Shown here in pieces: positions 4,663 through 53,796 of a stretch of 59,143 bases of DNA (positions are counted from its first letter, which is position 1; every line of letters begins with the position of its first letter). The notes under the pieces were generated by a model. The model had not been told where the DNA came from, did no database searches, and saw only the letters and a list, made by a program, of their open reading frames with translations. Position numbers and translations under genes: made by a program. Source of the DNA: Desulfuromonas sp. TF (GTDB taxonomy: Bacteria > Desulfobacterota > Desulfuromonadia > Desulfuromonadales > ATBO01); contig NZ_KI421428.1 of NCBI RefSeq assembly GCF_000472285.1, positions 93,851-152,993 on the forward strand, read 5' to 3'.

Positions 4663-4679
4663 CGGGAAAGAGGACGACG

Positions 4680-6050: not shown

Positions 6051-6077
6051 TTGCCTGTCCATCGGCGGTTTTTCAGA

Positions 6078-6106
6078 GGCGGGGCAAATTTGCTCCGCCT
6101 TTTTTT
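6078..6106 (+). terminator. Rho-independent terminator after the two-component operon
   Basis: A near-perfect 11-bp stem (GGCGGGGCAAA paired with TTTGCTCCGCC, one G-U pair) is followed by seven T residues. It lies 28 bp after the regulator stop and ends the kinase-regulator operon. Confidence 0.9.
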
Positions 6107-6199
6107 CTTGGGGATGGGATCTTAATCAGCGAAAGACGGGTCACGATTAGAAACATTTATGGTATCATGACTGAATTCATTTGCGACTCAGGAGGCTCC

Positions 6200-7000: not shown

Positions 7001-7031
7001 TTGACCTAATACCTTGAAATCATAATCTTCC

Positions 7032-7145
7032 TCTCGCCCGTTCGCTCCGCTCACTAGAGCACGCAGAGACCGCCGAGGGAACCAATCCCTGGATGGTTTC
7101 TCTGCGTCCTCTGCGGTCTCTAGCGACTGCAAGAAGCGGGCGAGA
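7032..7145. repeat. Long imperfect hairpin repeat between convergent genes
   Basis: Outer arms TCTCGCCCG (7032-7040) and CGGGCGAGA (7137-7145) are perfect. Inner arms (about 7054-7083 and 7094-7122) pair imperfectly and carry GCAGAG/CTCTGCG units. It fills the gap between the hydrolase stop and the stop of the convergent MBL gene and could end transcription from both sides. The units resemble the CGCGGAG repeats around 39.2-39.8 kb. Confidence 0.65.
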
Positions 7146-7156
7146 GATGCTTTTAT

Positions 7157-7879: not shown

Positions 7880-8028
7880 CCCTTTTAGCGCCCTGGGCTT
7901 CCTCTTTTTACCTGTTGAAACATAGACCTTTTCCAAAACGGAGCCCGCGGCTTTTCATGGCCGGAGGAGAAGGTAGACTTTTCGGAACGGTAAAAGTCTA
8001 TCAGATCCGACGGATCGATGGAAAAACG

Positions 8029-8571
8029 ATGAAAACTCCCATTCGGCTCACCTGGACCGTTGAAGTTGATGACGCGCTCCTGCATCCGCTGAGGGAATCC
8101 CTGGGCGCGATTTTCGGCTGCTCCGTTCAACCCGGCGGCGGCTTTACCGTGCTGCCGGAGGAGTTTCACGCCGGCCGTCGGCAGTACAGTGCTTCGGCCA
8201 TCCTGCGCCGCCTGAGACCATTGCGGAAGCACGGCGAGTACCTGCTGGCGGTGACCGGAGACGACCTTTTCGCTCCAGGTCTGAATTTCGTCTTCGGTGA
8301 AGCTGACGCCAGGGCGGGCTGCGCGATCATTTCCCTGGCCAGGCTGCAGGCGCCCCGTCTCGGTTTCCCCCTGACTTCGGAACGCCTCCTGCGCCGGACT
8401 CTTATCGAGGCGGTCCACGAGGTGGGTCATCTGCAGGGCCTTGGACATTGCCCGCGGACATCCTGCGTCATGCACTTTTCCAACAGCCTGGCCGATACGG
8501 ATCGAAAAACGCCCGATTTCTGTCCCTCCTGCCGGGAGGCCCTGCCGCCGTCAGGCGCCGAACTGATTTGA
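8029..8571 (+). CDS. amzA: Archaemetzincin-type zinc metalloprotease
   Basis: This is a predicted cytosolic zinc aminopeptidase-like metzincin. The family signature is complete: HEVGHLQGLGH (HEVGH at residues 130-134) followed by CPRTSCVM (metzincin Met turn) and DFCPSC, the extra four-Cys zinc site specific to archaemetzincins. With the ATG at 8029 the protein has 180 residues, normal for the family. The frame is open upstream to 7855 but that segment is not family-like. It is followed after 12 bp by a Clp1-like kinase, so both are probably co-transcribed. The substrate is unknown; the family is common in archaea and vertebrates and scattered in bacteria. Confidence 0.9.
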   Translation: MKTPIRLTWTVEVDDALLHPLRESLGAIFGCSVQPGGGFTVLPEEFHAGRRQYSASAILRRLRPLRKHGEYLLAVTGDDLFAPGLNFVFGEADARAGCAIISLARLQAPRLGFPLTSERLLRRTLIEAVHEVGHLQGLGHCPRTSCVMHFSNSLADTDRKTPDFCPSCREALPPSGAELI

Positions 8572-8583
8572 AAAAAACAGACG

Positions 8584-9444
8584 ATGACCGACGACCGCAT
8601 CTGCATACCCACCGCCTGGGAGACTCTCGAGCCGGAACGCCTGACCGGGACCATCCTGGTCATCGGCGCCTCCGACCGGGGAAAGAGCACCCTGGTGCGC
8701 TGGCTCGTGGAAAAGCTGCTGCGACGGCAGCCAAAGGTGGGATGGCTCGACGGTGACATCGGCCAGAGTACCCTGGGCGTTCCGTCGACCATGAACCTGG
8801 CGGTGCTGAAGCAGTTTGACCCCAATCCGCCGCAGCGGCAGGGAACGTTCTTTGTCGGCTCCACCTCGCCGCGCGGGCACATGCTTCCGACTCTGGTGGG
8901 AGTTGAGCTTCTGAACGAACTGGCCCTGAAGAAGGGTGCCGCAGCCGTGGTCATCGATACCACCGGGCTGGTGGCGGAGGACGCCGGAGGCGGCGCGCTG
9001 AAGCAGTGGAAAATCGAACTGCTGCGCCCTGACACCGTCATTGCCCTGCAACGCGACGGCGAGTTGGAGCATCTTCTGGCTCCTATGCGACGCGAGCGGC
9101 GTTTTACTCTTCACGAAATTCCAGTGGCCCAAGGAGTCGTGGCAAGATCCGCCGAGGAGCGGGCGGGACGCCGCCGTCTGTTGTTCCGCCGCTATTTCGA
9201 AAAGTCCCAGACTATGCAAATCGACCCCGCGCACATTCCGGTTTACGGGGGAGAGACGTGTCGCCCGGGTCGGCTTGCGGCTTTCCACGACGGCAGGGGA
9301 TTGACTCTGGCGCTGGGGACGATAGCGGCGACAAAGACGGGAGGTCTTGAGATCCTGACTCCCCTGGACGACTTATCGGAGGTGGCCGGCCTCCGCCTGG
9401 GGTCGATTCTGCTCGATCCGGCAACAGGAAATGAGTTCCAATAG
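8584..9444 (+). CDS. Clp1/Grc3-like polynucleotide 5'-kinase (P-loop)
   Basis: This is a P-loop protein of the COG1341-type group related to archaeal/eukaryotic Clp1 and Grc3, which phosphorylate 5'-OH ends of RNA or DNA. The Walker A GASDRGKST is at residues 28-36, and the next element GWLDGDIGQSTLGVP matches the D-x-D-x-GQ region conserved in that family. TTGLV/VIDTTG is the likely Walker B strand. The 286-residue length lacks the large C-terminal domain of Grc3. The ATG at 8584 lies 12 bp after archaemetzincin with only a weak ribosome site, suggesting coupling. RNA repair or processing is inference. Confidence 0.78.
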   Translation: MTDDRICIPTAWETLEPERLTGTILVIGASDRGKSTLVRWLVEKLLRRQPKVGWLDGDIGQSTLGVPSTMNLAVLKQFDPNPPQRQGTFFVGSTSPRGHMLPTLVGVELLNELALKKGAAAVVIDTTGLVAEDAGGGALKQWKIELLRPDTVIALQRDGELEHLLAPMRRERRFTLHEIPVAQGVVARSAEERAGRRRLLFRRYFEKSQTMQIDPAHIPVYGGETCRPGRLAAFHDGRGLTLALGTIAATKTGGLEILTPLDDLSEVAGLRLGSILLDPATGNEFQ

Positions 9445-9499
9445 CAGTCGCCGGAGAACGAAGGATCCCTTCTGTCAATTGCGGCGAGGAGAGGCGGGT

Positions 9500-9539
9500 A
9501 AAAAAATGCCCCGCAATCAGGAGGGAGCGATCACGGGGC
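9500..9539 (-). terminator. Rho-independent terminator downstream of the DUF1540 gene
   Basis: Read on the minus strand, GCCCCGT pairs with GCGGGGC around an 18-nt loop and is followed by ATTTTTTT. It lies about 70 bp past the DUF1540 stop and just past the kinase gene that converges from the other side. Confidence 0.65.
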
Positions 9540-9608
9540 CAAAAAACTTTACCCTTGGGCTGAAGCCCTGTCCTTATCCGGCCGGGCGCCTCAGGCGGTG
9601 CGGGACGG

Positions 9609-9902
9609 CTAACGTCTTTCGAAAGTCAGGCAGTCCGGTTGATCTTCCTTCATTCCGACGTGAATATTGGAAGCCGTGCATTCGTAATCCTCGTTGTAGC
9701 TGCATTCATAGGACTTGCAGGCTCCCACTCCAGCAGTCACTTCCTTGACCCCGCCGTGCGTGGATGATTCGAAGAAGGTGTCGCATACGGGCTCATCGGG
9801 ATCTTCCCCGATGGTGATCGCCATTGCGTGGCAGGCTTTGTTGGTATTGTAGGCGCAGTCGGCTACCGAGCAATCCATTACTTTGGGCATTTTCATGGCC
9901 AT
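9609..9902 (-). CDS. DUF1540 (Cys-rich, double-domain) protein
   Basis: This small protein of 97 residues consists of two copies of the DUF1540 Cys-rich module: DCSVADCAYNTNKACHAMAI...DEPVCDTF and ACKSYECSYNEDYECTASNI...QPDCLTF. Each has four Cys in C-x4-C-x6/7-C-x(n)-C spacing, likely a small metal site. Function is unknown; family members are widespread in Firmicutes and Deltaproteobacteria. The ATG at 9902 has AAAGGAGG 9 nt upstream, a strong site. It lies downstream of the feo operon but behind a strong terminator, so it is probably its own transcript. Confidence 0.85.
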   Translation of the reverse strand: MAMKMPKVMDCSVADCAYNTNKACHAMAITIGEDPDEPVCDTFFESSTHGGVKEVTAGVGACKSYECSYNEDYECTASNIHVGMKEDQPDCLTFERR

Positions 9903-39271: not shown

Positions 39272-39688
39272 ATGAAGGCATTGGATGATATCACAGGGGA
39301 AATAATCGATGCCTCGATCAAACTGCACAGGAATCTAGGGCCAGGATTACTGGAGAGCGTCTATGAAACCATTCTTTCTCAGGTTTTGTTGAAACGAGGA
39401 TTGGTGGTCGAGCGGCAGAAGCCGATTTGCTTCGAATACGACGGCATTCGTTTCGATGACGGTTTCCGAGTCGATCTGCTGGTGGAGGGATGCGTAGTTG
39501 TCGAATTGAAATCGGTGGAGAAAATAGCGCCGGTGCATGGTAAACAGTTGCTGACTTACCTCCGTCTTATGAATCTTCCAGTTGGGCTTCTGATCAATTT
39601 CGGAGCGACAACTCTCAAGGAAGGACTGCATCGCATTGTCAACAACCTTGATGCCTCAGTGTCTCCTGGGTTACGGGTGAACTCGTGA
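39272..39688 (+). CDS. GxxExxY-family protein
   Basis: This 138-residue protein carries the defining GPGLLESVYE motif (GxxExxY) and the nuclease-like core pattern FRVDLLVEGCVVVELKSVEKI (a PD-(D/E)xK-like D...ELK arrangement), ending LPVGLLINFG. The family is widespread, multicopy in environmental bacteria, and of unknown function; the fold suggests a nuclease. The start has GGAGGG 4 nt upstream within repeat DNA. It lies between copies A and B of the leader unit and is flanked on both sides by CGCGGAG repeats. Confidence 0.88.
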   Translation: MKALDDITGEIIDASIKLHRNLGPGLLESVYETILSQVLLKRGLVVERQKPICFEYDGIRFDDGFRVDLLVEGCVVVELKSVEKIAPVHGKQLLTYLRLMNLPVGLLINFGATTLKEGLHRIVNNLDASVSPGLRVNS

Positions 39689-39829: not shown

Positions 39830-39967
39830 TTGACATGAACCGCCGTTGCGGGTACTTTAGGGCATTCTTACATTTTGATTGCTCTGGAGTGTTTCAGATG
39901 AGAGTGCTGGGGGAAAAACTGTAGAGATTGATGAGGCCGCTTGGCGCCGTGAGGTGCGGGCGGTTTT
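39830..39967 (+). ncRNA. Promoter-leader-terminator unit, copy B
   Basis: TTGACA (39830-39835), 17-nt spacer, TACTTT (39853-39858), GATGAGAGT (39897-39905), and a hairpin CCGC / GCGG (39937-39940, 39960-39963) with inner GCGCC / GGTGC, followed by TTTTCTG. Inner stem differences from copy A keep pairing (two wobble exchanges). It ends 44 bp before the ORF6N gene, mirroring the layout of copy A. The hairpin region is also an open frame toward the gene (D-E-A-A-W-R-R), matching the small frame D-E-T-A-W-C-R of copy A. Confidence 0.6.
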
Positions 39968-40010
39968 CTGTTTACAGGCGAAACGCCAAGAACAAGAAGG
40001 AGGGGGAGCA

Positions 40011-40532
40011 ATGCTTATACCGGTAGAACGTATCGAAAAATCGATCCTGTTTCTCCGCGGCCAGAAGGTAATGCTGGATTCTGATCTGGCTGATCTCTAC
40101 GGGGTGACGACCAAACGCCTGAACGAGCAGGTGCGCAGGAATGCCGAACGGTTTCCACAAGACTTCCTGTTTCGGCTCAATGCCGAAGAGAAAGAGGAGG
40201 TGGTCGCAAATTGCGACCACCTCGCCAAGCTTAAATTCTCTCCGGTCCTCCCGTATGCTTTTACCGAGCATGGCGCCATAATGGCTGCCTCGGTGTTGAA
40301 TACCCCTCGGGCGGTGGAGGTCAGTGTCTATGTGGTACGAGCCTTCGTCAAACTGCGGGAGATGATCACCTCCAACACTGAAATTGCCCGGAGGCTGGAT
40401 GAGCTGGAGCAGAAGTACGATGCGCAATTCCGGGTAGTCTTCGACGCCATCCGGCAGATGATGATGCCGGAGGGGAAGGGGCGGAAGGAGATCGGTTTCA
40501 GGGTGGAGGAGGAAGGCGCGGCGTATCTGTGA
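40011..40532 (+). CDS. ORF6N-domain DNA-binding protein
   Basis: This 173-residue protein has an N-terminal ORF6N domain (about 5-95): IEKSILFLRGQKVMLDSDLADLYGVTTKRLNEQVRRN, then FPQDFLFRLN and a family-typical LPYAFTEHGAIMAASVLN. A coiled-coil-like C-terminal part follows. ORF6N/KilA-N proteins are phage- and island-borne DNA-binding proteins of mostly unknown role. The ATG at 40011 has AAGGAGGGGG upstream; the frame is open to 39879 through the leader hairpin. A 27-nt perfect palindrome lies within the coding region (40197-40223). Confidence 0.87.
   Translation: MLIPVERIEKSILFLRGQKVMLDSDLADLYGVTTKRLNEQVRRNAERFPQDFLFRLNAEEKEEVVANCDHLAKLKFSPVLPYAFTEHGAIMAASVLNTPRAVEVSVYVVRAFVKLREMITSNTEIARRLDELEQKYDAQFRVVFDAIRQMMMPEGKGRKEIGFRVEEEGAAYL
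40197..40223. promoter_or_regulatory. Perfect palindrome inside the ORF6N gene
   Basis: Arms GAGGTGGTCGCAA and TTGCGACCACCTC (13 bp each, no mismatch) surround a single A. It encodes the stretch EVVANCDHL. It may be an internal operator for the encoded DNA-binding protein, or an RNA hairpin. Confidence 0.6.
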
Positions 40533-40582: not shown

Positions 40583-40699
40583 GTGATAAGAAGCCGCTCT
40601 TTGTTGTTTGAAAACGGATACTTGGTTTGGGCCGACCCCGATAACCCCATGGTGAAGTGTCCGAGGTGTCGGGAGGCTGTGGAGGGTCGTGCTAAGTGA
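40583..40699 (+). CDS. Small CxxC peptide coupled to the Nudix gene (tentative)
   Basis: A 38-codon frame from GTG 40583 (no strong ribosome site) encodes a peptide with the tail PMVKCPRCREAVEGRAK, i.e. half of a zinc-ribbon (CPRC) with a basic end. Its TGA overlaps the GTG start of the Nudix gene by 4 nt (GTGA), the arrangement of coupled genes, which is the main reason to list it. It could equally be the 3' end of a longer decayed gene. Confidence 0.4.
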   Translation: MIRSRSLLFENGYLVWADPDNPMVKCPRCREAVEGRAK

Positions 40700-41094
40700 T
40701 TGATGTTGCCTGTGCGATTATCGAAATGGATGGATTGGTTTTAGCGGCTCAGCGCAGTGAAAATATGAGCCTACCGCTGAAGTGGGAATTCCCAGGAGGC
40801 AAGATTGATCCAGGGGAGTCTGCCGAGGAATGTCTGCGCCGTGAATTGGTTGAAGAGATGGGGATTCACGTGTCCGTGGGGAAAAGCCTGCCGGCCACCA
40901 CACACCAATATCCCAAGTTTGCGGTCACGCTTTATCCGTTTGTCTGTTCCATCGCGTCCGGTGAAATAGTCCTCCACGAACACGCTGCCATCGATTGGCT
41001 GCCGCCTGAGGAACTTCCCACACTGGACTGGGCCGAAGCAGATGTGCCGGTGATCGAGTCGTATCTTGCAGGCTGTGAGTTTTGCACCCCATGA
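40696..41094 (+). CDS. MutT-like Nudix hydrolase
   Basis: This 132-residue protein is MutT-like, hydrolysing nucleoside diphosphates linked to another group (8-oxo-dGTP in MutT). The Nudix box is canonical: GGKIDPGESAEECLRRELVEEMGI (GX5EX7REUXEEXGU). The protein opens MIDVACAIIEMDGLVLAAQR, as in MutT. GGAGG lies 10 nt before the GTG start. The stop overlaps the next gene's ATG by 4 nt (ATGA), so this Nudix is probably made with the helicase; in this context it may act on a nucleotide signal or protect a modified pool rather than serve general repair. Confidence 0.9.
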   Translation: MIDVACAIIEMDGLVLAAQRSENMSLPLKWEFPGGKIDPGESAEECLRRELVEEMGIHVSVGKSLPATTHQYPKFAVTLYPFVCSIASGEIVLHEHAAIDWLPPEELPTLDWAEADVPVIESYLAGCEFCTP

Positions 41095-44000
41095 ACCCTG
41101 TTGCCCCCGGCATATACGAAGCGCTCATTGATGAGTGCCTTCGCGATACGCTGGATCGGCATCCGGAGCTGCGAACCGTCTTCGGCAAAATCGACCCGGA
41201 AGAGCAGCCCGCCCGTTACGCGGCGTTCGTGGCCAAGGTGCTCGAACAGGCTCTGCGCGAAGAATCCGATCCGGAGAAAAGATTGGCCCTCTGCAACCAG
41301 CTCCTTGGACAAGTGGCTCAGGAGCCGGGCAGAAGTCATTTGGAAAAGCATCGACTCGTTCAGGAACAAAAACCGGTCCTTCTTGAAATCACGCCGCCGC
41401 ATTACGGCAAATCAGGCATTCCCCGTCCCCACACTCCCCTCGCCGAAAGCTCTCTCTTCACCGGATCTCCGCAGGAACCACAGCTTGGCCATGAACTGCT
41501 GGAAGAGATGCGGTCCGCCGATGGGGTGGATATCCTCGTTTCGTTCATCAAGTGGTCGGGGCTGCGTCTGCTGCTGCCGGCCTTCGAGGATCTGCGCGAC
41601 CGGCAGGTGCCGGTCCGGCTGATCACCACCTCCTACATGGGCGCCTCCGATGCCCCGGCGGTGGAGTGGCTGGCGCGGCTGCCGAATGTCAAGGTGCGCG
41701 TCTCTTACGATACCGAGCGTACCCGGCTCCACGCCAAGGCGTATCACTTCAAACGCAACAGCGGTTTCTCTACAGCCTACATCGGTTCGGCGAACATGTC
41801 CCAGGCGGCCATCACCAGCGGCCTGGAGTGGAACCTCAAGGTCACGGCGCAGGACATGGCGCATATCCTGGAGAAGTTTTCCGTCGAGTTCGAGACCTAT
41901 TGGAACAGCCGCGAGTTCGTCTCCTTCGATCCAGAGAGGCCGGAGCTATTTCGTGCGGCCATTGCTCGCGGCAAGAATGGAAACACCAATATCCCGGCAG
42001 TCTTCTTCGATCTGCGCCCCCACCCATTTCAGGAGCGCATCCTGGAGGCGCTGGAGCGGGAGCGCACCGCCCATGATCGTTGGCGCAACCTGGTTATCGC
42101 CGCCACCGGCACGGGCAAGACGGTGGTCGCCGCCTTCGACTTCAAGCGTTTCTTCGAACAGAGGCAGAATCAGGCCAGGCTGCTCTTCGTGGCCCATCGT
42201 CAGGAGATCCTCCAGCAAGCCCAGGCCACCTTTGCCAATGTCCTGCGCGACCAGAATTTCGGAGAACTGCAGGTCGGTCAGTTTCAGGCCACTCGCCTGG
42301 AGCATCTCTTCTGCTCTGTTGGCATGCTCACCAGTCGCCGCCTCTGGGAGCAAGTGGGGAGCGGGTACTACGACTACATCGTGGTCGACGAGGCCCACCA
42401 CGGCACCGCCAGCAGTTACCGGCCGCTCTTCGACCACTTTGCCCCGCAGATTCTCCTGGGACTGACCGCCACCCCGGAGCGGATGGACGGTGACAACGTG
42501 GCCGCCGATTTCGGCAATCGTTTCGCCGCCGAGATTCGTCTCCCGGAAGCTCTGGAGGAAAAACTCCTCTGTCCCTTCCACTACTTCGGCGTTGCCGACC
42601 CGATCGCCATCAACGGTGAGCAGTTCTGGCGCAACGGCAGGTACGATGCTTCGGCACTGGAAAACGTCTATGTGCTGGATAACGTCCGCGCCAAACAGCG
42701 CGTCGATGCCATCATTGCGGCGCTCCACCGCTACGAGCCCGACCTTGCCGCCCTCAAGGGAATCGGTTTCTGCGTCACCATCAAGCATGCCGAGTTCATG
42801 GCAGAGACCTTCACCAATATGGGAATCCCTTCCGCTGCCTTTGTTTCCGGGGTAGACGATGGCCGTTGCCGGGAACTGCTGGCTGATCTGAAAAGCGGCC
42901 GGCTCACCTTCCTCTTTACCGTGGACAAGCTGAGTGAAGGGGTGGACGTGCCGGAAGTCAACACGGTGCTTTTCCTCCGCCCCACGGAGAGCCTGACCGT
43001 CTTCCTCCAGCAGCTCGGGCGCGGCCTGCGCCATGCGCCGGGCAAGGACTGCCTCACCGTTCTCGACTTGGTCGGTCAGGCCCACCGCCGCTACCGGGTC
43101 GATACCAAACTGAAAGCGCTCCTCCCCCGTCACCGCTTTTCCATCGACAAGGAAGTAGAGCAGGATTTCCCCCACCTCCCGGCCGGCTGCTCGATTCAGC
43201 TCGACCGCCTCTCCCGGCAGTACGTGCTGGAGAACATCAAGGAGAACTTGGGCCGCCTGGCGGTGCAGGTTCCTGACCGGCTGCAGACTTTCACCAACGA
43301 AAGCGGCAAGGAACTGACCTTCGGCAACTTCATCCGCTACCACGATTACGAGCCGGAAGTGCTGCTGGCGAAGGAGTCCTGGTCGGGGTGGAAGGCCAAG
43401 GCACAGCTGGCGGCGATCCCCATGGACCCGGATCTGGCGCGGCTGAAAAAGACCCTGCTGCGCGCCGCATTTATCAACGGTCCGCGGGAGCTTGCCCGGT
43501 TGCGGCAGGTGCTTGCCAAGGTGGCAGAGGGTGCCATTGATGAGGCGTTGGCCCTGGCCGGGGATGCGGCCATGCCGGTGTACTATCGGTTCTGGGGAGA
43601 CAAGGGGAGCAATCTCGGCATCACCTCTCTGGATGATGCCTTCCGCCGCTTGGCCCGCAATCCGTCGATCCTTGCCGATCTGGACGAAATCCTCGCCTGG
43701 TCGCAGGACACCACCGAGGTCAGCGGTCAGATTCCGCAGCTCCCCTTCGCCTGCCCCCTGGAACTGCACGCCCATTACGGCGGCAAGGAGATTCAGGCGG
43801 TCTTTGGCCGGGCAAATCTGGAGACAGCCGGGCAGACCGGCGTGGGCTCGTTCCACTTCGCTGACGTAAAGACCTATGTGCTGCTGGTTACCTTTCAGAA
43901 GACCGAGAAGGAGTTCTCGCCGAGCACCATGTATGCCGATTACCCGATCAGCAGGGAGCTCATGCACTGGGAGTCGCAGGCGAATACCGCGCAGCATCAC

Positions 44001-44219
44001 ATTGACGGGCAGAACCTGATTCACCATCGGGAGCGGGGTTACACGATCTTGCTCTTTGCCCGTGACCAGAAGAGACGGAACAATGCCACGGTGCCGTTCA
44101 CCTATCTGGGGCCGGTGGATATGGTGAGTTTCGAGAGCGACCGGCCGATCAAGATGGTGTGGCGGTTGCGGCATCCGATGCCGGTGGAGATGTTTGAGGA
44201 TAATCGGCGGGGTGGGTAA
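41091..44219 (+). CDS. PLD-nuclease / SF2 helicase / DUF3427 protein
   Basis: This 1042-residue protein has three parts. Residues about 125-290 form a phospholipase-D-type nuclease (RLHAKAYHFKRNSG...YIGSANMSQAAI: HxK-N motif at about 213-233). Residues about 305-700 are an SF2 helicase with Walker A AATGTGKT (about 336), DEAH (about 431), TATPER and the motif VI region QQLGRGLRHAPGK. The C terminus (about 720-1042) is DUF3427-like. ATG 41091 overlaps the Nudix stop. Proteins of this build occur in defence islands and may cut or unwind invading DNA; I do not assign a named system. Confidence 0.88.
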   Translation: MNPVAPGIYEALIDECLRDTLDRHPELRTVFGKIDPEEQPARYAAFVAKVLEQALREESDPEKRLALCNQLLGQVAQEPGRSHLEKHRLVQEQKPVLLEITPPHYGKSGIPRPHTPLAESSLFTGSPQEPQLGHELLEEMRSADGVDILVSFIKWSGLRLLLPAFEDLRDRQVPVRLITTSYMGASDAPAVEWLARLPNVKVRVSYDTERTRLHAKAYHFKRNSGFSTAYIGSANMSQAAITSGLEWNLKVTAQDMAHILEKFSVEFETYWNSREFVSFDPERPELFRAAIARGKNGNTNIPAVFFDLRPHPFQERILEALERERTAHDRWRNLVIAATGTGKTVVAAFDFKRFFEQRQNQARLLFVAHRQEILQQAQATFANVLRDQNFGELQVGQFQATRLEHLFCSVGMLTSRRLWEQVGSGYYDYIVVDEAHHGTASSYRPLFDHFAPQILLGLTATPERMDGDNVAADFGNRFAAEIRLPEALEEKLLCPFHYFGVADPIAINGEQFWRNGRYDASALENVYVLDNVRAKQRVDAIIAALHRYEPDLAALKGIGFCVTIKHAEFMAETFTNMGIPSAAFVSGVDDGRCRELLADLKSGRLTFLFTVDKLSEGVDVPEVNTVLFLRPTESLTVFLQQLGRGLRHAPGKDCLTVLDLVGQAHRRYRVDTKLKALLPRHRFSIDKEVEQDFPHLPAGCSIQLDRLSRQYVLENIKENLGRLAVQVPDRLQTFTNESGKELTFGNFIRYHDYEPEVLLAKESWSGWKAKAQLAAIPMDPDLARLKKTLLRAAFINGPRELARLRQVLAKVAEGAIDEALALAGDAAMPVYYRFWGDKGSNLGITSLDDAFRRLARNPSILADLDEILAWSQDTTEVSGQIPQLPFACPLELHAHYGGKEIQAVFGRANLETAGQTGVGSFHFADVKTYVLLVTFQKTEKEFSPSTMYADYPISRELMHWESQANTAQHHIDGQNLIHHRERGYTILLFARDQKRRNNATVPFTYLGPVDMVSFESDRPIKMVWRLRHPMPVEMFEDNRRGG

Positions 44220-44251: not shown

Positions 44252-47200
44252 ATGAAAGTTGATTCAAGTCTCAAGCCTAAGCGAGGCAGTTCACGTCGTA
44301 AAGGTGATGAGTTTCAAGATCTAACCGCCCTAAAATCAATCTTGAATTATTATATCGAAGGTAAAGATTTCAAAGCGTTTCTCGAATACGAGAAGACGGA
44401 CGCTATAGATGACATTGTAATTTTTTCCGGAAACAAAATTCGTGCAATTCAAGCAAAATACGCAGTAGACCCTTTGGCCGTTTATATTCAAAATGATTTT
44501 ACGGAAAAGGACAGCCGTACATATTTTGGGCGCTATGCTGCTGGATGGCGTAAGGCACGTCAGATTCATCCTGGGATGGACATAGATATCGAACTGGTCT
44601 CAAATCGTGGCCGTGACTCGTCGCTCAAAGGGATAATCGGAGCAGTGGGGGTGTTTCTCCCCGAATTCGTTGAAGGAAGGAAACGCAAAGAAGCCAAAAA
44701 ATTTCGCGACGATCTTCAGAAAGCATGTGCATTTACAGGGACTGATGCATCAACACAATTTCAAGAGTTCTTACGGTCGTTTCAATTTCAACTCAGTCAG
44801 AGGTCACTTAAAGAATTACGCGAACATATCGAAGGTGAACTGCTTGATCACCAACTAGGAATAACCGATAGAGCGGTTTATCATAAGCTAAAAGATCTTG
44901 TCGAACGACATGCCATAGAGATTCATGATCCAATAACACCATCAATCCTTGATGAGATATTTCGCCAGGCACAAAGTAGATTTCTCCTGCCGCAGCAATT
45001 CCAAGTCGATCAACAACGATTTGTTCAATTGGAGTCGTTTGAAGTAGCACTATCGCGTCTGATTAAAGAAACGGAATCTGGGTACATTGTAATAACAGGT
45101 CTACCCGGCAGCGGAAAATCCACCTCCCTTAGTCAATTCTTCAATACGCTAGAAAAAGGCCAGCAGTACGCAATTTGTCGCTACTTCTGTTTCGTTAGTC
45201 CAAATGATGACAACGCTCGTTTACGCCTCGAAGCCGAGTCTCTTCGGATTAATTTGCTTTCAGAGTTTCATAATCAATTTGGTCATTTACTTCCTCGCCG
45301 ACACGATTACAGTGAGCGCCGCTTTACTGAAGTCCTCGCTGAACTTGGTCAAATCCTGTCGGGAGACAACTCAAAGCTGGTAGTGCTGCTGGATGGTCTT
45401 GATCACGCAGAACGTGACCCGCACGTTAAGGACAGTGTGTTACGTGCGTTGCCGACGAGCTTACCGCCGGGAGTAATAGTTGTAATTGGCACTCAAGAGC
45501 TGAAAAGCTGGGAGCCTTTGGCCTTAAGCGAAGGGCGTAAGCAACGTCACATCCCAATTCCTCTCTTTTCTTTGCCCCAGACGAAGTCCTATCTCCTTGA
45601 GAAGCACGGCTTGGTACTGCAAGACGAAGCAGTCAGAAAAATCTTTAATAAAAGTGATGGTCTACCTCTCTATCTTCGTTATGTAACTATCTGGCTTTCT
45701 GCGCATAACGGAGATGTCGAGAGTCTTGATCATATGCCAGAAGCTGTAAATGGCGACATACGAGATTATTACGAACGGTTATGGGCGAATCTTGAGCGCG
45801 ATGGGATGGCTCTCGCTCGATATCTTTCCGGTGTGCTGGCTGTTCTGCGCTTTCCAGTCGGCGAGGCGGAATTATTTGAGTTCCAAGACGAAGTTCGTTT
45901 GTTGGATCTTCCGGCTACGATGAAAGCCGTTTCCCACCTTCTGCGCCATCAGGCGGGACAGGTTTCCATTTTTCACGACAGTTTTCGTGTTTTTGTCCTT
46001 GCAAAAATCGACGCGGTAACCCGTCGCCGCATAACTCGAACTATCTCAGAGAAATTGAAAACCGAGCGAGGCAGTGCGCGTTGGTTTGGGTTTGCTTTCA
46101 GTTATGCACTTGATGCTGGCGATGAACAATACGTTCTGTCTGAGGTTAATCGCCAGTTCGTTGACTTTGCGCTTCAACATTGCAGACCTGCTGATGATAT
46201 TTTTTCAGCTATTGACACTGCCGTAAAGGCGGCAGTCCGCCAGAAGGCTCTAATTGAACTGTCTAGGTTGGGTTCTTTGCACTATCGGACGCATGAACGG
46301 CTCGAACATCAATTTGACCATAGTATGCTGGCAAAAGTCCTGCTCAAACTTGGTCGTGTGGAAGATGTTCTAGGCTATTGTTGTCACTGGCATGAAAGAC
46401 ATTGGCTGGTGGATACAGATGTAGCCATGCAAGTTATGGTTTGGTGTGCGGCAACAAGCCGACTTGAACTCGGGGAAAAGTTATTTGACATATTCTGTGA
46501 AACCCATGCACATCATGAATGGGAGCAGCGTTCTGATTTTGTAAAACTTGCTCGTGTAGTGGCCATTTATTCAAAGAGACCTCACAAATTCCTGCAGTGG
46601 ATATCAGGATTGAAGTTCACTCCTGATCTTATTGAGAGGAAAGATTATTTTGCCCCTGGATATGCACCGCATCTCGCTGCATTTCTTGAATCATATTTTC
46701 TTTACCGGCCAAACAGCGATTGGCCGCGCCTTAAGAAGATAAGTCGGATCTTTCCCAATCACCTTGTCAGGCATTATATCCTGCGTTTGGTCGCACGCCA
46801 TTGTTCCCAAGAAATTCTTCGGACAGAGCTTGAAGAATATCTTACAAATACTCCGGTCGGTGAAAATCTTGAGATTGCAGGTTACGCTGTAATGGCAGGT
46901 TTGCCCGGCGAACAAGTCCGGAAATTGGCAGGACCAGTGAAGTTACCCCCAAATAAGATAATCGGTGATACTCGCCGTGAATCCCAAGAAGCTGACGTAG
47001 ATGCGTTTTGGTGGTCCGCGTTAGTGCTTGGCTATGAGGATGACCAAAAGACTATCAACCAAGTAAAACATCACATTGGCAATGATGGGACAATGTGGTC
47101 TGGATTTCTCAGCTTTATGCTACAAGCTGGGCTTTGTCTTGGCCGAGTAGCAGCAGGGAAACCTGATGACCTTTACATAAGAGCTGTTTCGGCACTAGAC

Positions 47201-50200
47201 GAGCTCGCTTTGGCTGGTACAGAAGATCAGCCCCAAGAAATGGACACCTTGAGGGCTTGCAGACCGATGTTGCCAGAGTTGCTCTCTCGCCTTACGGGTT
47301 GTATCGCTGTCGTAAGCCCGCGTGATCTTGAAGATTGGTTCGATAAGCTTCTGAGGTTACGTCAGAGCGAAATATGGACGTCCCATTGGGGTATTGGCGA
47401 ATCTTACGTCGACTACTCGTTTGAGCTAGCAATTTGGGAGAGGCTGACTGATATTCCCGGTGCAAGTGTGAAGCTCCTTCCCATTCTTCGCGATTGCGCA
47501 TCTACCTATACCGATACAAGATCTCTTAAAGCCGGCTCCAGATCAGATCACTTCCTGTGGCTGTCATACATTGCCGCAAAATCCGGGTGGAGAGCAGATG
47601 CAGAAAAATGGCGTGAGAAAGCAATCGCATGCTCCCTCACATATGGATATCGTAAGGACGCTACTCTCGATTGCCTGATAGATGTACTTGATCTTCTCAA
47701 TGAATTTGAACCTGCCCTGACGCTTCCCCGCGCTGCCGCCATTCTTGAAATGGTGAAGTGGATGAACGCTGCAACTGACGGTAGAGGAACGAAGCACTTC
47801 GAGCAATCCGCATTCAATGTAGTCTTGAAAAGAAGCCGTGAAGCGGCGTTCAGCCTTATTCGATATTTCAGAGAGCATGCTGGTCGTTGGAAGATGCTCG
47901 ATTGCCTGGAAAAATTCATCCTTAGTGTTGAAACGGGTGATCCTGAGCTGCTATGGGTTCTCAAGGATGTTTTTTCACCCCATTTTGTTGAACGTGGTCG
48001 CCATCCGAAGCAACTTGAGCGCGCTGCTCGCCACCTTAAGGATTTAGGAGCACGCTTAGAGCCTGAACAATCTGAGATATGGCGTGTGCGTTTCGAGGCG
48101 TTCATTCGCACGCATATCGATCCAGGCTGGTGGCCGGATGACATATGGGCAGTTGTTCAGAAAGATGAAAAAAGGGCCGCATACCACGCTCGTGAACCAT
48201 ATGGTGATGACTCTGCAATACCAAAAGAACTAATTTTAAATGGCCAGCCGATTCAGAAAGAAGAGCTCGAGCAGAAGCTGTCGAGGTCGGTTGAGTCATA
48301 TTGCCGTACAATGGAGCTACTGCGAGCTGAAAATGGGCATTTCTATGAACCTAAGCTTGTAAATTCTGCTTTTGAGTATCATGCATCGCGATCAAGTTCA
48401 ATCTCTGAAGCACATCGTCTAAGGACAATCGCAGAAGCGGATGATTCCGTGAAATCTGAAGCCCTTCTCATTCTCGCACATCGCCTATTCGATTATGGAG
48501 AATACGATTCAGGCTATGAAACTTTACTTCTCGCTTATCAACGAGATACGAAGTATTACCCGGGTGAAGAAGATGCTGCTCCGATTCTAAAAGAACTGTG
48601 CGACCGCGATCAAGGAAGAATAGCAGATTTCATAGTACAACGATGCGATGAACATTTAATGAAAAGTTATGGTGGATTTGATATACCGCGGTTTATCGCT
48701 CGTTATTTCTCTGCTTGCGGTGATGTGGCATCACTTCGGAAAGTTTTCGAGGATTACCTGCGGCATTGCCAAGAATTATTTGAGCACTTGCCTCAACAGG
48801 AATTGTACGGATGGCTCCGCGATTATGTTGAAGGGAAAACGATCGAAGATGAGGAAATTGTAAATTTCCTCATTGATTTGCTTGGTGAGCCTGAGATCGA
48901 CCAAGCAAAGCGTCTTCTTCGTGTGCTTACGGCACTTTCAAAGTCGCTGCCCGAAATTGTTTGCCGAATCTGCTGCCACCGGCTTAAAGATGCTGAACCA
49001 CTTTTGCGAGAGCGTCTTGAAATACTGCTAGATGCCGTTTCTTGCTTGGCCCCCGACGTTATCGCGCCGCATTTGGGGTTGCTTGTCCCATTACTTCAGA
49101 AGCCGAATTTTCGATTCCGGATGACGATTATCGACGTCGTTAAACGGGTTTCGAAATCACTATCGCTGCCAGAATCGGTAGTTGAGGCTGTCAACGAAGC
49201 TGAACGCACTTACTCTCCGTTGATCAAATATCCCTATCGTCGTTTTCTTCTAACTCCACCGTCATCTGGTTTTATTGCATTCCTTAAGAGAGGGGCGCTG
49301 TTTAGCCTGCTAAAGGAGATTCAAGGTGTTAGCGACCTTCTGCAGGTGAAATTGAATATAGTGATTGCATACATTGAGCAAGGTCTTATGAAACAAGGTT
49401 GGAAACTTGCTGATGAACAAGATCGACTTAAAGATGAATGGGAAGGAAAGGCACATGGTGGTCATGTGATTTGGTTCATTCCATCTTTTCATACACTGGT
49501 TTCTGAACTTCTCCAGAGCTTCATCCATGAGGCTTTAGAAAATGGAAGCTACGGAAATGATGTACTAAATGCCATATTTAACGTTGTGAGAAGTGGCGAC
49601 CCATCCTTTGTTGCAGAGTTGTCACGACAAAAGCCTTTAAATATCCAAGCCTTGAATGTGAAAAATTCATCAGAGTGGATAAAGGAAATTGAACGGCAAT
49701 CGCCGAAGCAGGTTGATGTTTTACCTCCAGATGAATGGACGACTGTTTATGAGGAAAGATTTTTGACACAGACAAGCGATTCGAGTTCTAAGCTCTGTTC
49801 CGAATTAAAGGTCCGCACCCTCCTTGTCTCGCCTGAATATAGCTCTGATGAAGATTTATGGCCTGATCCCTCAGATTGGTCTGATGTTATTCCTTGTGTA
49901 CATCCGGAAGAAAGGCTTACGATCGATGCTGCTGCTAATATTATTTCGAAAGGAGCAATTTTTGTAGAATCAGATCAGAATTATCCAATGTATCCATTTG
50001 TAGCTCTCCATGTGAATAACCAGGGTTTTGTGGGTTATAGACACATGCCATATATTCATCCGATGTGGGTCGGTAGATACAGCCTTGAAGTCGAGGGGTG
50101 TCAAATTAAACACGATGAACAAATTATTGCTTATTTTGAGGAATGGCAGGAGGGCTATGAAGATGAAGCGTACAGCCGCGACCTTCTATCTGCCGGCATC

Positions 50201-50377
50201 CGTTTAATCGTAAAAACGGACTGGATACGTAGGATGCTCAAAGCCGCTAGTTATTCAATGGCGATGTGGACTTCAGAAAAGCGTATGAAAAGAGATGCTT
50301 GGACAAGAAAGGCTCCTTCAGAGATTTCGGAGCATGAACGGTATTCAGTTTATATTCCCTATGGGCCAGCTAAATAA
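44252..50377 (+). CDS. Giant nuclease-STAND NTPase (Avs-like), AT-rich
   Basis: This 2041-residue protein begins with a Cap4/DUF4297-like nuclease (about 17-150: DEFQDLTALKSI; Glu45, Asp53/Asp54, QAK at 67-69, a PD-(D/E)xK pattern). A STAND/NACHT-like NTPase follows: Walker A GLPGSGKST at 283-291 and Walker B LVVLLDGLDHAE at about 376-387. The remaining roughly 1400 residues are helical, repeat-like, without a recognised domain. The combination matches antiphage Avs proteins, in which the C terminus recognises a phage protein and the nuclease is triggered. Start has AAGGGA 6-9 nt upstream. The gene is clearly AT-richer than its neighbours, a sign of transfer. Confidence 0.85.
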   Translation: MKVDSSLKPKRGSSRRKGDEFQDLTALKSILNYYIEGKDFKAFLEYEKTDAIDDIVIFSGNKIRAIQAKYAVDPLAVYIQNDFTEKDSRTYFGRYAAGWRKARQIHPGMDIDIELVSNRGRDSSLKGIIGAVGVFLPEFVEGRKRKEAKKFRDDLQKACAFTGTDASTQFQEFLRSFQFQLSQRSLKELREHIEGELLDHQLGITDRAVYHKLKDLVERHAIEIHDPITPSILDEIFRQAQSRFLLPQQFQVDQQRFVQLESFEVALSRLIKETESGYIVITGLPGSGKSTSLSQFFNTLEKGQQYAICRYFCFVSPNDDNARLRLEAESLRINLLSEFHNQFGHLLPRRHDYSERRFTEVLAELGQILSGDNSKLVVLLDGLDHAERDPHVKDSVLRALPTSLPPGVIVVIGTQELKSWEPLALSEGRKQRHIPIPLFSLPQTKSYLLEKHGLVLQDEAVRKIFNKSDGLPLYLRYVTIWLSAHNGDVESLDHMPEAVNGDIRDYYERLWANLERDGMALARYLSGVLAVLRFPVGEAELFEFQDEVRLLDLPATMKAVSHLLRHQAGQVSIFHDSFRVFVLAKIDAVTRRRITRTISEKLKTERGSARWFGFAFSYALDAGDEQYVLSEVNRQFVDFALQHCRPADDIFSAIDTAVKAAVRQKALIELSRLGSLHYRTHERLEHQFDHSMLAKVLLKLGRVEDVLGYCCHWHERHWLVDTDVAMQVMVWCAATSRLELGEKLFDIFCETHAHHEWEQRSDFVKLARVVAIYSKRPHKFLQWISGLKFTPDLIERKDYFAPGYAPHLAAFLESYFLYRPNSDWPRLKKISRIFPNHLVRHYILRLVARHCSQEILRTELEEYLTNTPVGENLEIAGYAVMAGLPGEQVRKLAGPVKLPPNKIIGDTRRESQEADVDAFWWSALVLGYEDDQKTINQVKHHIGNDGTMWSGFLSFMLQAGLCLGRVAAGKPDDLYIRAVSALDELALAGTEDQPQEMDTLRACRPMLPELLSRLTGCIAVVSPRDLEDWFDKLLRLRQSEIWTSHWGIGESYVDYSFELAIWERLTDIPGASVKLLPILRDCASTYTDTRSLKAGSRSDHFLWLSYIAAKSGWRADAEKWREKAIACSLTYGYRKDATLDCLIDVLDLLNEFEPALTLPRAAAILEMVKWMNAATDGRGTKHFEQSAFNVVLKRSREAAFSLIRYFREHAGRWKMLDCLEKFILSVETGDPELLWVLKDVFSPHFVERGRHPKQLERAARHLKDLGARLEPEQSEIWRVRFEAFIRTHIDPGWWPDDIWAVVQKDEKRAAYHAREPYGDDSAIPKELILNGQPIQKEELEQKLSRSVESYCRTMELLRAENGHFYEPKLVNSAFEYHASRSSSISEAHRLRTIAEADDSVKSEALLILAHRLFDYGEYDSGYETLLLAYQRDTKYYPGEEDAAPILKELCDRDQGRIADFIVQRCDEHLMKSYGGFDIPRFIARYFSACGDVASLRKVFEDYLRHCQELFEHLPQQELYGWLRDYVEGKTIEDEEIVNFLIDLLGEPEIDQAKRLLRVLTALSKSLPEIVCRICCHRLKDAEPLLRERLEILLDAVSCLAPDVIAPHLGLLVPLLQKPNFRFRMTIIDVVKRVSKSLSLPESVVEAVNEAERTYSPLIKYPYRRFLLTPPSSGFIAFLKRGALFSLLKEIQGVSDLLQVKLNIVIAYIEQGLMKQGWKLADEQDRLKDEWEGKAHGGHVIWFIPSFHTLVSELLQSFIHEALENGSYGNDVLNAIFNVVRSGDPSFVAELSRQKPLNIQALNVKNSSEWIKEIERQSPKQVDVLPPDEWTTVYEERFLTQTSDSSSKLCSELKVRTLLVSPEYSSDEDLWPDPSDWSDVIPCVHPEERLTIDAAANIISKGAIFVESDQNYPMYPFVALHVNNQGFVGYRHMPYIHPMWVGRYSLEVEGCQIKHDEQIIAYFEEWQEGYEDEAYSRDLLSAGIRLIVKTDWIRRMLKAASYSMAMWTSEKRMKRDAWTRKAPSEISEHERYSVYIPYGPAK

Positions 50378-50515
50378 CCTTGGTGGGAATCGCCCGGGGT
50401 CAGGTCATAGGAACGAGTGCCAAACCTTTCTGGTACAGGTCCGGTTTCCCTTATTGTCAGATACTTAGGGATATACTTTTAATCGAATGTTTTGAAGACT
50501 CGCGCTGGGGATCGA

Positions 50516-50827
50516 ATGACCTCTCCTGAGACCTATATAAATAACTTCACCCACCTAAACCGCGCCCCCGGCCCCGTGTGGGGCGAAGCCACCAGAAAAC
50601 GCGCCCCGCACAAACCGATCCTGCTGCTTGCAGTGCTGGATCTGGTGCATCGCGGCGCCATCACCTCGCCATTCATCGACGTCACCGGCGATCTGGTGGA
50701 GCTAAACGAGCTGTTCAACCTCTATTGGCGGCGGATCATCCCCCTGGGGCAGACCAGCAGCATCGCCTTTCCCTTCTCCCGTCTCGACAGGGAACCATTC
50801 TGGGAACTGGTGCAGCAACCGGACTGA
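50516..50827 (+). pseudogene. Truncated N-terminal domain of an HNH restriction-endonuclease-like protein
   Basis: This 103-residue frame (RAPHKPILLLAVLDLVHRGAI..., then ELNELFNLYWRRI and PFSRLDREPFWELV) matches the N-terminal domain that precedes the HNH nuclease in a group of restriction endonucleases, including ones reading phosphorothioate or modified DNA. The nuclease part is absent: the frame stops at 50827 and repeat DNA follows. I found no continuation in other frames. The ATG at 50516 has GGGGA upstream, so a short peptide might still be made. Confidence 0.65.
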
Positions 50828-50876: not shown

Positions 50877-50991
50877 GGGTCGGACCAAAATAACTACCTT
50901 AAATTATTAAGCAATATATGAAATTCAATGGCCAAAACGGGCTTACAGGCCGATTTTCAGGGGCAAAATAGCCGGCTTAACGACCTCCCGC
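50877..50991. repeat. 115-bp direct repeat, copy 1
   Basis: Begins GGTCGGACCAAAATAAC and ends CTTAACGACCTCCCGC. It is about 90 percent identical to 51474-51589. It contains the near-palindrome CTTAAATTATTAAG and a hairpin with ATTTT...AAAAT inside GGC...GCC. The first 20 bases recur near 53855. Confidence 0.85.
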
Positions 50992-51019
50992 TGGAAACGG
51001 CGGGGCTGGTGCTGTTAAC

Positions 51020-51470
51020 TTACCCCCTCACCCGCTTGCCCGCCACCCTGTACACCGTCAGATTCTCCCGCTTCCTCTCCGCCACGACGATGACCACCAC
51101 CCGGCTGTCATCCACCTGGTAGACCAGCCGGTAGCCGGCATTTTTCAGCTTGATCTTGTAGCAGTCGGGCATTCCCTTGAGCCGGGCCGCTTCGATGCAC
51201 GGCCGGACCAGGCGCTCGGCAAGCTTCTTCTTGAACTGTTCACGGATAGCCCTATCGAGCTTCTTCCACTCCGGGAGCCTCTCGGAATCGGGGGATCGTC
51301 ACGAGAAGATGGGAAATCGAGGACAGATTTTCGTAAATTTGAGAGCGAATAGTGAATCTATTTGTCGAAAATTTGCGGAGATCTGGCCCGATTTACCTCT
51401 TTCGCAGTAGATTCATCCCTGAGTCGAGAGGCTCCTTGGGCCGATTCCTTGAACTCGAGACAGGAACGCT
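51020..51470 (-). pseudogene. relE-family toxin remnant interrupted by a TIR element
   Basis: The downstream part (minus strand, about 51272 to stop 51020) encodes most of a RelE toxin: EWKKLDRAIREQFKKKLAERL, RLKGMPDCYKIKLKNAGYRLVYQ, VVVIVVAERKREN. The upstream part (about 51470-51438) encodes the RelE-like start CLEFKESAQ. About 165 bp with terminal inverted repeats separates them, and no start codon or antitoxin gene remains. The gene is dead. Confidence 0.75.
51273..51437. mobile_element. Small TIR element (MITE-like) inside relE
   Basis: GGAGCCTCTCG (51273-51283) and CGAGAGGCTCC (51427-51437) are perfect 11-bp terminal inverted repeats around an AT-richer, non-coding 140 bp. The segment sits exactly between the two halves of a relE reading frame, the best evidence that it was inserted. 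No clear target duplication could be defined, and no transposase is encoded. Confidence 0.65.
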
Positions 51471-51473: not shown

Positions 51474-51589
51474 GGGGTCGGACCAAACTAAATGCCTTAA
51501 ATTTTAAGCAATGTATGAAATCTGACGGTCAAAAACGGGTTTAGAGGCCGATTTTCAGGGGCAAAATAGCCGGCTTAACGACCTCCCGC
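51474..51589. repeat. 115-bp direct repeat, copy 2
   Basis: Same element as at 50877-50991; the last 50 bases (GGCCGATTTTCAGGGG...) are identical. The copies flank the relE remnant in direct orientation, 480 bp apart. Beyond it, 51590-51817 holds no gene I can recognise; only the start region of mntA follows. Confidence 0.85.
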
Positions 51590-51817
51590 CAAACCCCAGC
51601 TCAAAACCAACCTAATCGAACCTCTCCAGCTCCCCCCGTCGATCCGCAAGGAAGAAACGAGAGACACCCTCCCGGCCCCAGCGTCCGGACCTGAAGCTCC
51701 CCCTGTTCCACATCCAATACCGGCCGATCTCCAGGATGGTTTTTGTTTTGCCGGTGCTTGGGCGCGTGCTATATATATGTAAAATCAACTTCTTGTGGAA
51801 TGATTGTCGGAGTCGCC

Positions 51818-52102
51818 ATGGACAGGCTCATCGAAGAACATCGTGAAGAAATCAAGCACCTTGCCGCCCTGCGAGGCGCCAGTCGGGTTCGGGTTTTCGG
51901 TTCCAGGGCGCGCGGAGAGGCCCGTCCGGACAGTGATGTGGATATCCTGGTGGACCTGGAGAAAGGGCGCTCCGCCCTGGCACTGGGGGGGCTGCTGATG
52001 GACCTGCAGGATCTTCTGGGCAAGAGGGTCGATGTGTTGACACCGGCGGCCCTGCACCCGAAAATCCGGGAAAACATTCTCAAGCAGGCTGTTGACCTGT
52101 GA
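51818..52102 (+). CDS. mntA: MntA-type nucleotidyltransferase antitoxin
   Basis: This 94-residue minimal nucleotidyltransferase has the active site GSRARGEARPDSDVDILV (GSx10DxD). In MntA/HepT systems the enzyme AMPylates the HEPN toxin on a Tyr near its RNase motif, silencing it. ATG 51818 has CGGAG 6 nt upstream; upstream in-frame codons at 51743 and 51800 are less likely. The stop overlaps the hepT start as TGATG. An 81-bp piece of this gene is repeated at 53931-54011. Confidence 0.9.
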   Translation: MDRLIEEHREEIKHLAALRGASRVRVFGSRARGEARPDSDVDILVDLEKGRSALALGGLLMDLQDLLGKRVDVLTPAALHPKIRENILKQAVDL

Positions 52103-52440
52103 TGCTCAGCGAACGAGATCAAGTTTATGTCGAGCACATGCTCGAATGTATCGGCCGCATAGAACGATACGTCGACGATGATCGCGGCCGGTTCATGCAG
52201 TCTGAGATCGTTCAGGATGCCGTCGTGCGAAACCTGCAGACGTTGGCCGAGTCTAGCCAGCGCTTGTCCGATGTCGCAAAACGATCCCAGCCCGGAATCG
52301 ACTGGCGCGCCATCGCCGGCTTTCGCAACGTCCTCGTGCATGACTACCTGGGCCTTGACCTCGACACGATCTGGCTGGTGATCGAACAGGACCTCCCGCA
52401 GCTCAAAAATGGTCTCGAAGCGATGATAGAAGGGGAATAG
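52102..52440 (+). CDS. hepT: HepT-type HEPN ribonuclease toxin
   Basis: This 112-residue all-helical HEPN protein carries RNVLVHDY (Rx4HxY), the RNase motif with the Tyr that MntA modifies. HepT is an RNase toxin. Its ATG at 52102 shares a base with the mntA stop (TGATG), so synthesis is coupled to the antitoxin; GTG 52099 is an alternative. Size and order match the family exactly. Confidence 0.92.
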   Translation: MLSERDQVYVEHMLECIGRIERYVDDDRGRFMQSEIVQDAVVRNLQTLAESSQRLSDVAKRSQPGIDWRAIAGFRNVLVHDYLGLDLDTIWLVIEQDLPQLKNGLEAMIEGE

Positions 52441-52626: not shown

Positions 52627-53796
52627 ATGAAGCGAGAGCTCCAGGGCAGATACGTGACCATATCGACGGTGGGTGAGAAGGCCCAGGCCTTCGTGCCCGC
52701 GCCGCTGCCGCCGCGTCCGCCCATCGACTGGACGCCGGAGCTGCGCAGCAAGTTCGACCAGGCGCTGCTGGCGCTCGGACGGCTGGACAGCGTCTCGACT
52801 CTGCTGCCGGACACCTCTCTGTTTCTCTACATGTACGTCCGCAAGGAAGCGGTGCTCTCCTCCATGATCGAGGGGACACAATCCTCGCTGTCGGACCTGC
52901 TGCTGTTCGAGCTGGATCAGGAGCCGGGTGTCCCGCTGGATGATGTGCGGGAGGTCAGCAACTATGTCGCGGCCCTCGATCACGGCCGGCGCCTGCTGGA
53001 AGAAGGGCTGCCGCTGTCGCTGCGGCTGTTCCGGGAGATCCACGGCGTGCTTCTGACCAAGGGCCGGGGCAGCAATCAGACCCCGGGCGAGTTCCGGCGC
53101 AGTCAGAACTGGATCGGCGGCACCCGGCCGGGTAACGCGGCCTTCGTTCCACCTCCGGCCGAAGAGGTGCTGGAGTGCATGAGCAAGCTGGAACTCTTCC
53201 TCCATGACCAGCCGGAGCCGACCCCGGTGCTGCTCAAGGCGGCGCTGGCCCATGTACAGTTTGAGACGATCCACCCGTTCTTGGACGGTAACGGCCGTCT
53301 GGGGCGTCTGCTGATCACGCTGCTGTTGTGCGAGCAGAAGGTGCTGCGAGAGCCGATGCTCTACCTCAGCCTCTACTTCAAGACGCACCGCCAGTATTAC
53401 TACGAGCTGCTCAACAACGTGCGACTGACCGGCGACTGGGAAGCCTGGTTCGACTTCTTCGCCGAGGCGGTCATCTTCACCGCCACCCAGGCGGTGGAAA
53501 CCGCCCAGCAGCTCCTCGACCTGTCCAACCAGGATCGAGACAAGATCAGCGGTCTGGGCCGGGCGGCGGCATCAACCCTGCAAGTTCACCGGGCTCTGAT
53601 GGAGCATCCCCTCGCCACCTCGGGCTCGCTGGTTGAGAAGACCGGCATCACCTCGGCGACGGTCAACAAGGCGCTCGGCCACTTGGAGCAGCTCGGCATC
53701 GTGAAGGAGCTGACCGCTCGGAAGCGCAACCGACTGTTTAGCTACGCGGGCTATATCGAGATCATGAGCCGTGGCACGGAGCCGCCAGGCAGGTAG
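52627..53796 (+). CDS. Fic-family protein with C-terminal winged helix
   Basis: Fic proteins transfer AMP from ATP onto protein hydroxyls. The 389 residues contain the active loop HPFLDGNGRLGRLL (canonical HPFx(D/E)GNGRxxR), an N-terminal inhibitory helix SSMIEGTQSS ((S/T)xxxE(G/N), so class II, self-inhibited), and a C-terminal winged helix (about 310-380: LVEKTGITSATVNKALGHLEQLG). Targets unknown. ATG 52627 lies just after GGCAGG. Position beside a toxin-antitoxin pair suggests an accessory stress or defence role. Confidence 0.93.
   Translation: MKRELQGRYVTISTVGEKAQAFVPAPLPPRPPIDWTPELRSKFDQALLALGRLDSVSTLLPDTSLFLYMYVRKEAVLSSMIEGTQSSLSDLLLFELDQEPGVPLDDVREVSNYVAALDHGRRLLEEGLPLSLRLFREIHGVLLTKGRGSNQTPGEFRRSQNWIGGTRPGNAAFVPPPAEEVLECMSKLELFLHDQPEPTPVLLKAALAHVQFETIHPFLDGNGRLGRLLITLLLCEQKVLREPMLYLSLYFKTHRQYYYELLNNVRLTGDWEAWFDFFAEAVIFTATQAVETAQQLLDLSNQDRDKISGLGRAAASTLQVHRALMEHPLATSGSLVEKTGITSATVNKALGHLEQLGIVKELTARKRNRLFSYAGYIEIMSRGTEPPGR

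Follow-up and report, generated by a model that had tools for sequence, protein, structure and literature searches.

A putative stand-alone Avs-type immune receptor with a Cap4-type nuclease and a very diverged sensor half in Desulfuromonas sp. TF

A stretch of 59,143 nucleotides from Desulfuromonas sp. TF (the window; contig NZ_KI421428.1, positions 93,851 to 152,993) carries on its forward strand, at 44252–50377, a gene that the initial annotation described as encoding an uncatalogued Avs-type phage sensor of 2041 residues, leaving open whether its sensor half belongs to a known Avs clade. The locus therefore raises the question of whether the product is a receptor of this kind and, if so, where it stands among the catalogued types. 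The open reading frame was confirmed as intact, with 2041 codons, an ATG start, zero internal stops and a possible ribosome-binding sequence (AGGGA) about 6 nt 5' of the start codon, and one full-length copy was found in the genome (4.4 Mb, 17 contigs). The broad-sense Avs (AVAST) architecture of an effector, a STAND nucleoside triphosphatase (NTPase) and a large sensor was recognised in the protein, with kinship to Avs1b in sequence and to Avs3 in fold. The gene is most probably, at a rough probability of 0.77, a stand-alone Avs-type immune receptor that would bind a phage protein, oligomerise and cleave DNA, leading to abortive infection. The proposed Avs-type reading was thus upheld in its nuclease-STAND-sensor architecture and Avs-like fold, and so was the description of the protein as uncatalogued.

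The N-terminal effector was identified as a Cap4/DUF4297-type PD-(D/E)xK nuclease domain at residues ~11–240 (44282–44971, forward strand, as for all parts of this gene). PADLOC matched this domain to LmuA (E = 7.9e-8) and to CBASS endonuclease effectors (E = 1.2e-7), and Pfam Cap4_nuclease (PF14130) was recorded with an E value of 0.0023, below the family cut-off. The catalytic motif D53-D54...Q67-x-K69 (44408–44458) is invariant among the relatives; when eight sequences were aligned, Q22, D53, D54, Q67 and K69 showed no variation, nor did the same residues and G18 in a nuclease-domain alignment of ten, and DD[ILV]...QxK was present in nearly all relatives having a complete N terminus. The catalytic residues first proposed, Asp53/54, Gln67 and Lys69, were therefore retained, with the exception of Glu45, since the conserved acid of the family aligns with E47. 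The absence of a PD-(D/E)xK fold had been set beforehand as a possible refutation, but the reading withstood it: the nuclease part of the AlphaFold model was found to match HerA-DUF4297 (9c1m, Z = 15.1, root-mean-square deviation (rmsd) 3.3 over 180 residues), Cap4 (7yib, Z = 13.1 over 203) and LmuA (9hr5, Z = 12.0). Searched against PDB sequences, the nuclease-domain profile retrieved the Hachiman protein AbpA (E = 0.004), and also DUF4297, although weakly (E = 0.2). Both features that define a Cap4/DUF4297 nuclease, the PD-(D/E)xK fold and the D...QxK active site, are thus present and are shared with HerA-DUF4297, CBASS Cap4 and Lamassu LmuA, whereas the partners of these three are HerA, SAVED and Lamassu proteins, with no STAND NTPase.

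The STAND NTPase and winged helix were located at residues 257–604 (45020–46063) by PADLOC Avs1b, Pfam and the family hidden Markov model. The Walker A motif GLPGSGKS (residues 283–290, 45098–45121), supported by the alignment of the relatives, and the Walker B motif VVLLDGLDHAER (residues ~377–388) were found where they had been placed in the initial annotation, at 283 and near 380, respectively. In the eight-sequence alignment, D381, G382, D384, H385 and R388 were invariant in the Walker B-type block around LLDGLDHAER (residues 376–388, 45377–45415), as were H575, S577, F578 and R579 in the sequence FHDSFR (residues 574–579, 45971–45988). The winged helix of NLR proteins carries an MHD motif that acts as a latch, and FHDSFR would correspond to it in position and style. 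With Walker A, Walker B and a winged-helix motif flanked by an effector on one side and a repeat domain on the other, the region has the organisation of an NLR-like STAND NTPase, and Pfam NPHP3_N, AAA_16, AAA_22 and NACHT all scored above their own cut-offs in it. Among library models, PADLOC Avs1b matched best, covering the NTPase and the start of the solenoid (residues 251–781, E = 1.8e-36), while NCBIfam Avs1b gave 98.7 bits (E = 1.4e-28) against a cut-off of 1500, so the protein does not qualify as Avs1. Structure prediction, advised in the initial annotation, gave a model of residues 1–780 with a mean predicted local distance difference test (pLDDT) value of 70, in which the nuclease and Avs3-like folds were both recognised. 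The best solved structure by Foldseek was Avs3 with terminase (8dgc, E = 1.7e-17), and VIA-align gave a Z of 16.1 over 579 residues with an rmsd of 28.9, a value due to a different orientation of the domains, so that the match holds domain by domain and not as one rigid body.

Around 20 relatives, roughly 15–33% identical, were collected from plasmid, genome and contig searches. A genome-contig scan with the single protein gave zero matches, and the same scan with a three-sequence alignment gave seven relatives (24–33% identity); in the eight-sequence alignment, no segment was sufficiently conserved to serve as a query. Complete relatives range from ~1,450 to 2,180 residues, and nearly all share the nuclease motif; of those tested, some were recognised by PADLOC and NCBIfam via the ATPase region of Avs1b, others via the nuclease, and others by neither. 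The Cap4-nuclease STAND relatives are annotated as 'ATP-binding protein' (e.g., WP_013028141.1, WP_172692825.1 and WP_126390593.1) and resemble the present protein in domain order, in a length of ~2,000 residues and in nuclease and NTPase motifs, but identity to them is only about 15–28%, and the present protein forms a lone long NTPase branch with a far more diverged sensor. Pairwise comparison resolved four clades, A (L008, L009, L022 and L026), B (L010, L012, L023 and L024), C (L011, L015, L025 and L027) and D (L007, L013, L017, L019 and L020), and left the 2041-residue protein, L035 and the archaeal L016, from Halobaculum, each alone outside them. Defence genes were found beside several relatives, namely Gabija at L008 and L035, PDC-S39 at L035, Dsr1 at L009, and a type I methyltransferase together with AbiJ at L025. 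At L018, from the same phylum, overlapping frames of 647 and 1367 codons (3666–9642) were observed, probably representing a frameshifted Cap4-STAND gene.

The NTPase phylogeny, first suggested with Avs1–5 references, was run with Avs1b. Avs1b joined clades A and B (plus L035, if included) with support values of 94–96/91–92, and clades C and D and the 2041-residue protein fell outside, the last as a lone branch of ~1.3 changes per column. The Cap4-nuclease proteins of clades A and B and L035 were nearer to Avs1b than the present protein was. A clade of the latter with Avs1b alone was rejected by the approximately unbiased test (p-AU = 0.018), whereas with L035 added it was not (0.07). The family NTPase profile scored 93–135 bits on all four Avs1b proteins tested, taken from avs1a-avs1b-avs1c loci, and detected no such domain in the Avs2 relatives L055 and L056 or the Avs4 relative L057; hhalign likewise revealed no kinship of the present protein with these three, of which L055 and L057 had been confirmed as relatives of Avs2 (9o4e) and Avs4 (8dgf), respectively, by phmmer against the PDB. 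No match to the Avs2 and Avs4 models was obtained in this genome, nor to the Avs5 model in this genome or anywhere else scanned, and Avs5 differs in having a SIR2 effector in place of a nuclease. As far as its sequence goes, the protein is accordingly placed within a family of Cap4-nuclease STAND proteins that also encloses Avs1b, and is one of its very diverged members. For the clade left open at the outset, this means a position outside Avs1 proper and with no sequence kinship to Avs2 or Avs4.

The C-terminal half is long and mostly helical, and, as the initial annotation had stated, no named domain was found in it by Pfam, NCBIfam or PADLOC. A conserved helical solenoid block at residues ~1066–1265 (47447–48046) matched the Halobaculum protein as well as clades C and D in hhalign, with probabilities of 92–95% and E values of ~1e-7 to 1e-8. 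Beyond it, residues 1265–2041 matched no clade when compared with single-clade profiles. Against a combined profile of 17 sequences (clades A, B and C, L035 and Avs1b), residues 867–1996 were collinear with an E value of 4e-14. Within this span, the diverged sensor region at residues ~1477–1998 (48680–50245) gave a probability of 76%, an E value of 2e-5 and a score of 54.5, compared with at most 31.7 for eight control sequences and at most 25.8 for 25 shuffles. This signal disappears once L035 or Avs1b is removed from the profile, and the remote collinearity of the last part of the sensor with the family is therefore tentative. A shared C-terminal tail motif (E = 0.055, the best value against 2,000 shuffles) is suggestive only. 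The sensor half is thus very diverged, aligning only to the combined family profile. As a separate observation, an unannotated stretch of an Undibacterium plasmid (NZ_AP018442.1, 49764–50000, H83) resembles Avs1b over no more than its final 78 residues, with 34% identity.

The manner in which such a receptor would act can be outlined from studied systems. In SeAvs3, binding of the viral protein leads to a tetramer in which the Cap4-type nucleases are paired as dimers, one of them active (PMC11291478), and the nucleases of Avs1–4 kill through cutting phage and host DNA (PMC12931631). By analogy, the winged helix, together with the long helical sensor, would keep the NTPase of the present protein ADP-bound and inactive at rest; binding of a conserved protein of the infecting phage by the C-terminal half would lead to nucleotide exchange and oligomerisation, and the oligomer would pair the N-terminal nuclease domains into active dimers that cut phage and host DNA, so that the infection is aborted. 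The sensing of a phage protein is deduced from how the domains are arranged and from the location of the relatives in defence islands; oligomerisation, ADP/ATP switching, DNA cleavage and cell death would follow from the same comparison. The large terminase is the first candidate for the ligand because it is sensed by both Avs1 and Avs3. Two results weigh against the reading as an Avs-type receptor. The sensor half had no close relative among the genomes, plasmids, phages and viral contigs sampled (two scans of viral contigs and one search of a phage collection gave no relative, nor did the last 241 residues when searched against plasmids), and the AlphaFold model of residues 842–2041 was unusable, with a pLDDT of 42. 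A bolder version, in which a broad uncatalogued family of single-gene Cap4-STAND receptors has Avs1 as just one tip with a swapped effector and the present protein as a deep, separate lineage sensing a novel phage trigger, is possible, with the odds against it.

The strongest competitor, itself unlikely, is a variant of Avs1 that senses the large terminase, built on the Avs1b scaffold with the protease replaced by a Cap4 nuclease. Avs1b is the nearest library model for the NTPase, is of similar length (~1,930 vs 2,041 residues) and contributes to the only profile with which the C-terminal half is remotely collinear; an Avs1 system, moreover, is activated by terminase, and in it Avs1b bears an N-terminal trypsin-like protease and the partner Avs1a is a metallo-beta-lactamase (MBL) nuclease (PMC12799240). 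The present protein, however, carries its own fused Cap4-type nuclease at the position of the protease, and the exclusive clade with Avs1b was rejected, with the Cap4-nuclease proteins of clades A and B and L035 standing closer to it. In addition, the Avs1b profile found nothing in residues 700–2041 by direct hhalign, and the NCBIfam score lies far under its cut-off. Neither Avs1a nor Avs1c was found nearby: none of the neighbours scanned with Pfam and PADLOC was an MBL nuclease, and the Avs1c model gave zero matches in the genome, the same model being silent in all control genomes too.

A distant Avs3 is rather improbable. SeAvs3 (8dgc) is likewise a single large protein of ~2,030 residues with a Cap4-type nuclease, a STAND NTPase and a long sensor, and it is the top structural match over the nuclease and NTPase. 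Nevertheless, no PADLOC or NCBIfam Avs3 family was matched at E values up to 1, and 8dgc was not retrieved by the family profiles from PDB sequences at E values up to 10, so that sequence kinship with Avs3 went undetected at the level of libraries and family profiles. NF041812, considered as a candidate Avs3 model, was ruled out as a beta-lactamase. There is little likelihood, too, of a STAND protein with a trigger other than phage, for instance proteins of a plasmid entering the cell or a signal of stress in the host, whose nuclease would still kill the cell; STAND proteins also serve as regulators, and the maltose-system regulator was among the fold matches, but antiphage genes adjoin the relatives and the architecture is like that of phage-sensing Avs proteins. 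Finally, a decayed or inactive copy, as the flanking remnants (a cut-short HNH gene and a RelE truncated at its N terminus) might suggest, is very improbable given 2041 stop-free codons with all catalytic and STAND motifs intact.

The base composition of the gene sets it apart from its surroundings. The description of the gene as strongly AT-rich translates into 45.6% GC against 58% for the window, and into a GC fraction at third codon positions of 0.40, when the helicase gene before it has 0.77 and the fragment after it 0.74. GC content falls from the 5' edge of the gene onwards and has recovered within ~100–150 bp of the stop codon, and this step suggests horizontal acquisition. The family-level taxon is represented in the genome collection by this genome alone. 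No direct repeats were found bordering the gene, and promoter and terminator scans gave no excess above chance.

The neighbours in the window include a type IV restriction-like helicase, an MNT/HEPN pair and SoFic. The helicase, of PLDc-DEAD-DUF3427 type (41082–44219, forward strand; PADLOC type IV methyl-directed restriction enzyme, E = 5e-192), is overlapped at its upstream end by a NUDIX gene (PDC-S07; 40696–41094, forward), and the two probably form a defence module of their own; their inclusion in the system of the 2041-residue protein was rejected, as no Avs relative stands beside that helicase among the fetched loci. Further upstream in the same island lie genes for a PDDEXK_3 (GxxExxY-type) protein (39272–39688, forward) and an ORF6N protein (PDC-S05; 39879–40532, forward). 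Downstream, a cut-short reading frame (50492–50827, forward) resembles a Dnd-associated HNH endonuclease over the N-terminal portion of the latter, with the catalytic half missing, and is 42% identical to a Candidatus Chlorohelix protein adjoining dnd genes. An insertion of the receptor gene into a helicase-HNH module was unsupported, the best full-length relative of the fragment being a Dnd-associated HNH protein. It is followed by a RelE/ParE-like toxin remnant without an N-terminal start (51010–51290, reverse), the N-terminally truncated neighbour noted above, which is bracketed by a 58-bp direct repeat (50934–50991 and 51532–51589; 97%, 598 bp apart); another pair, of 30 bp, is equally spaced. 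The MNT/HEPN toxin-antitoxin pair (nucleotidyltransferase and HepT; 51743–52440, forward) precedes the SoFic-type Fic gene (52627–53796, forward; PADLOC SoFic, E = 4e-119).

To our knowledge, the known Avs types sense just a handful of conserved phage proteins. Nuclease receptors of ~2,000 residues, known to the libraries mainly via their Avs1b-like ATPase and carrying diverged sensors, may therefore be a source of new phage-detection specificities. The NTPase tree also hints at the origin of Avs1: Cap4-type nucleases occur in the clades around Avs1b, and the simplest reading is an effector exchange, a hypothesis insofar as the root of the tree was not inferred, in which Avs1 would have traded a fused nuclease for a protease and a separate nuclease.

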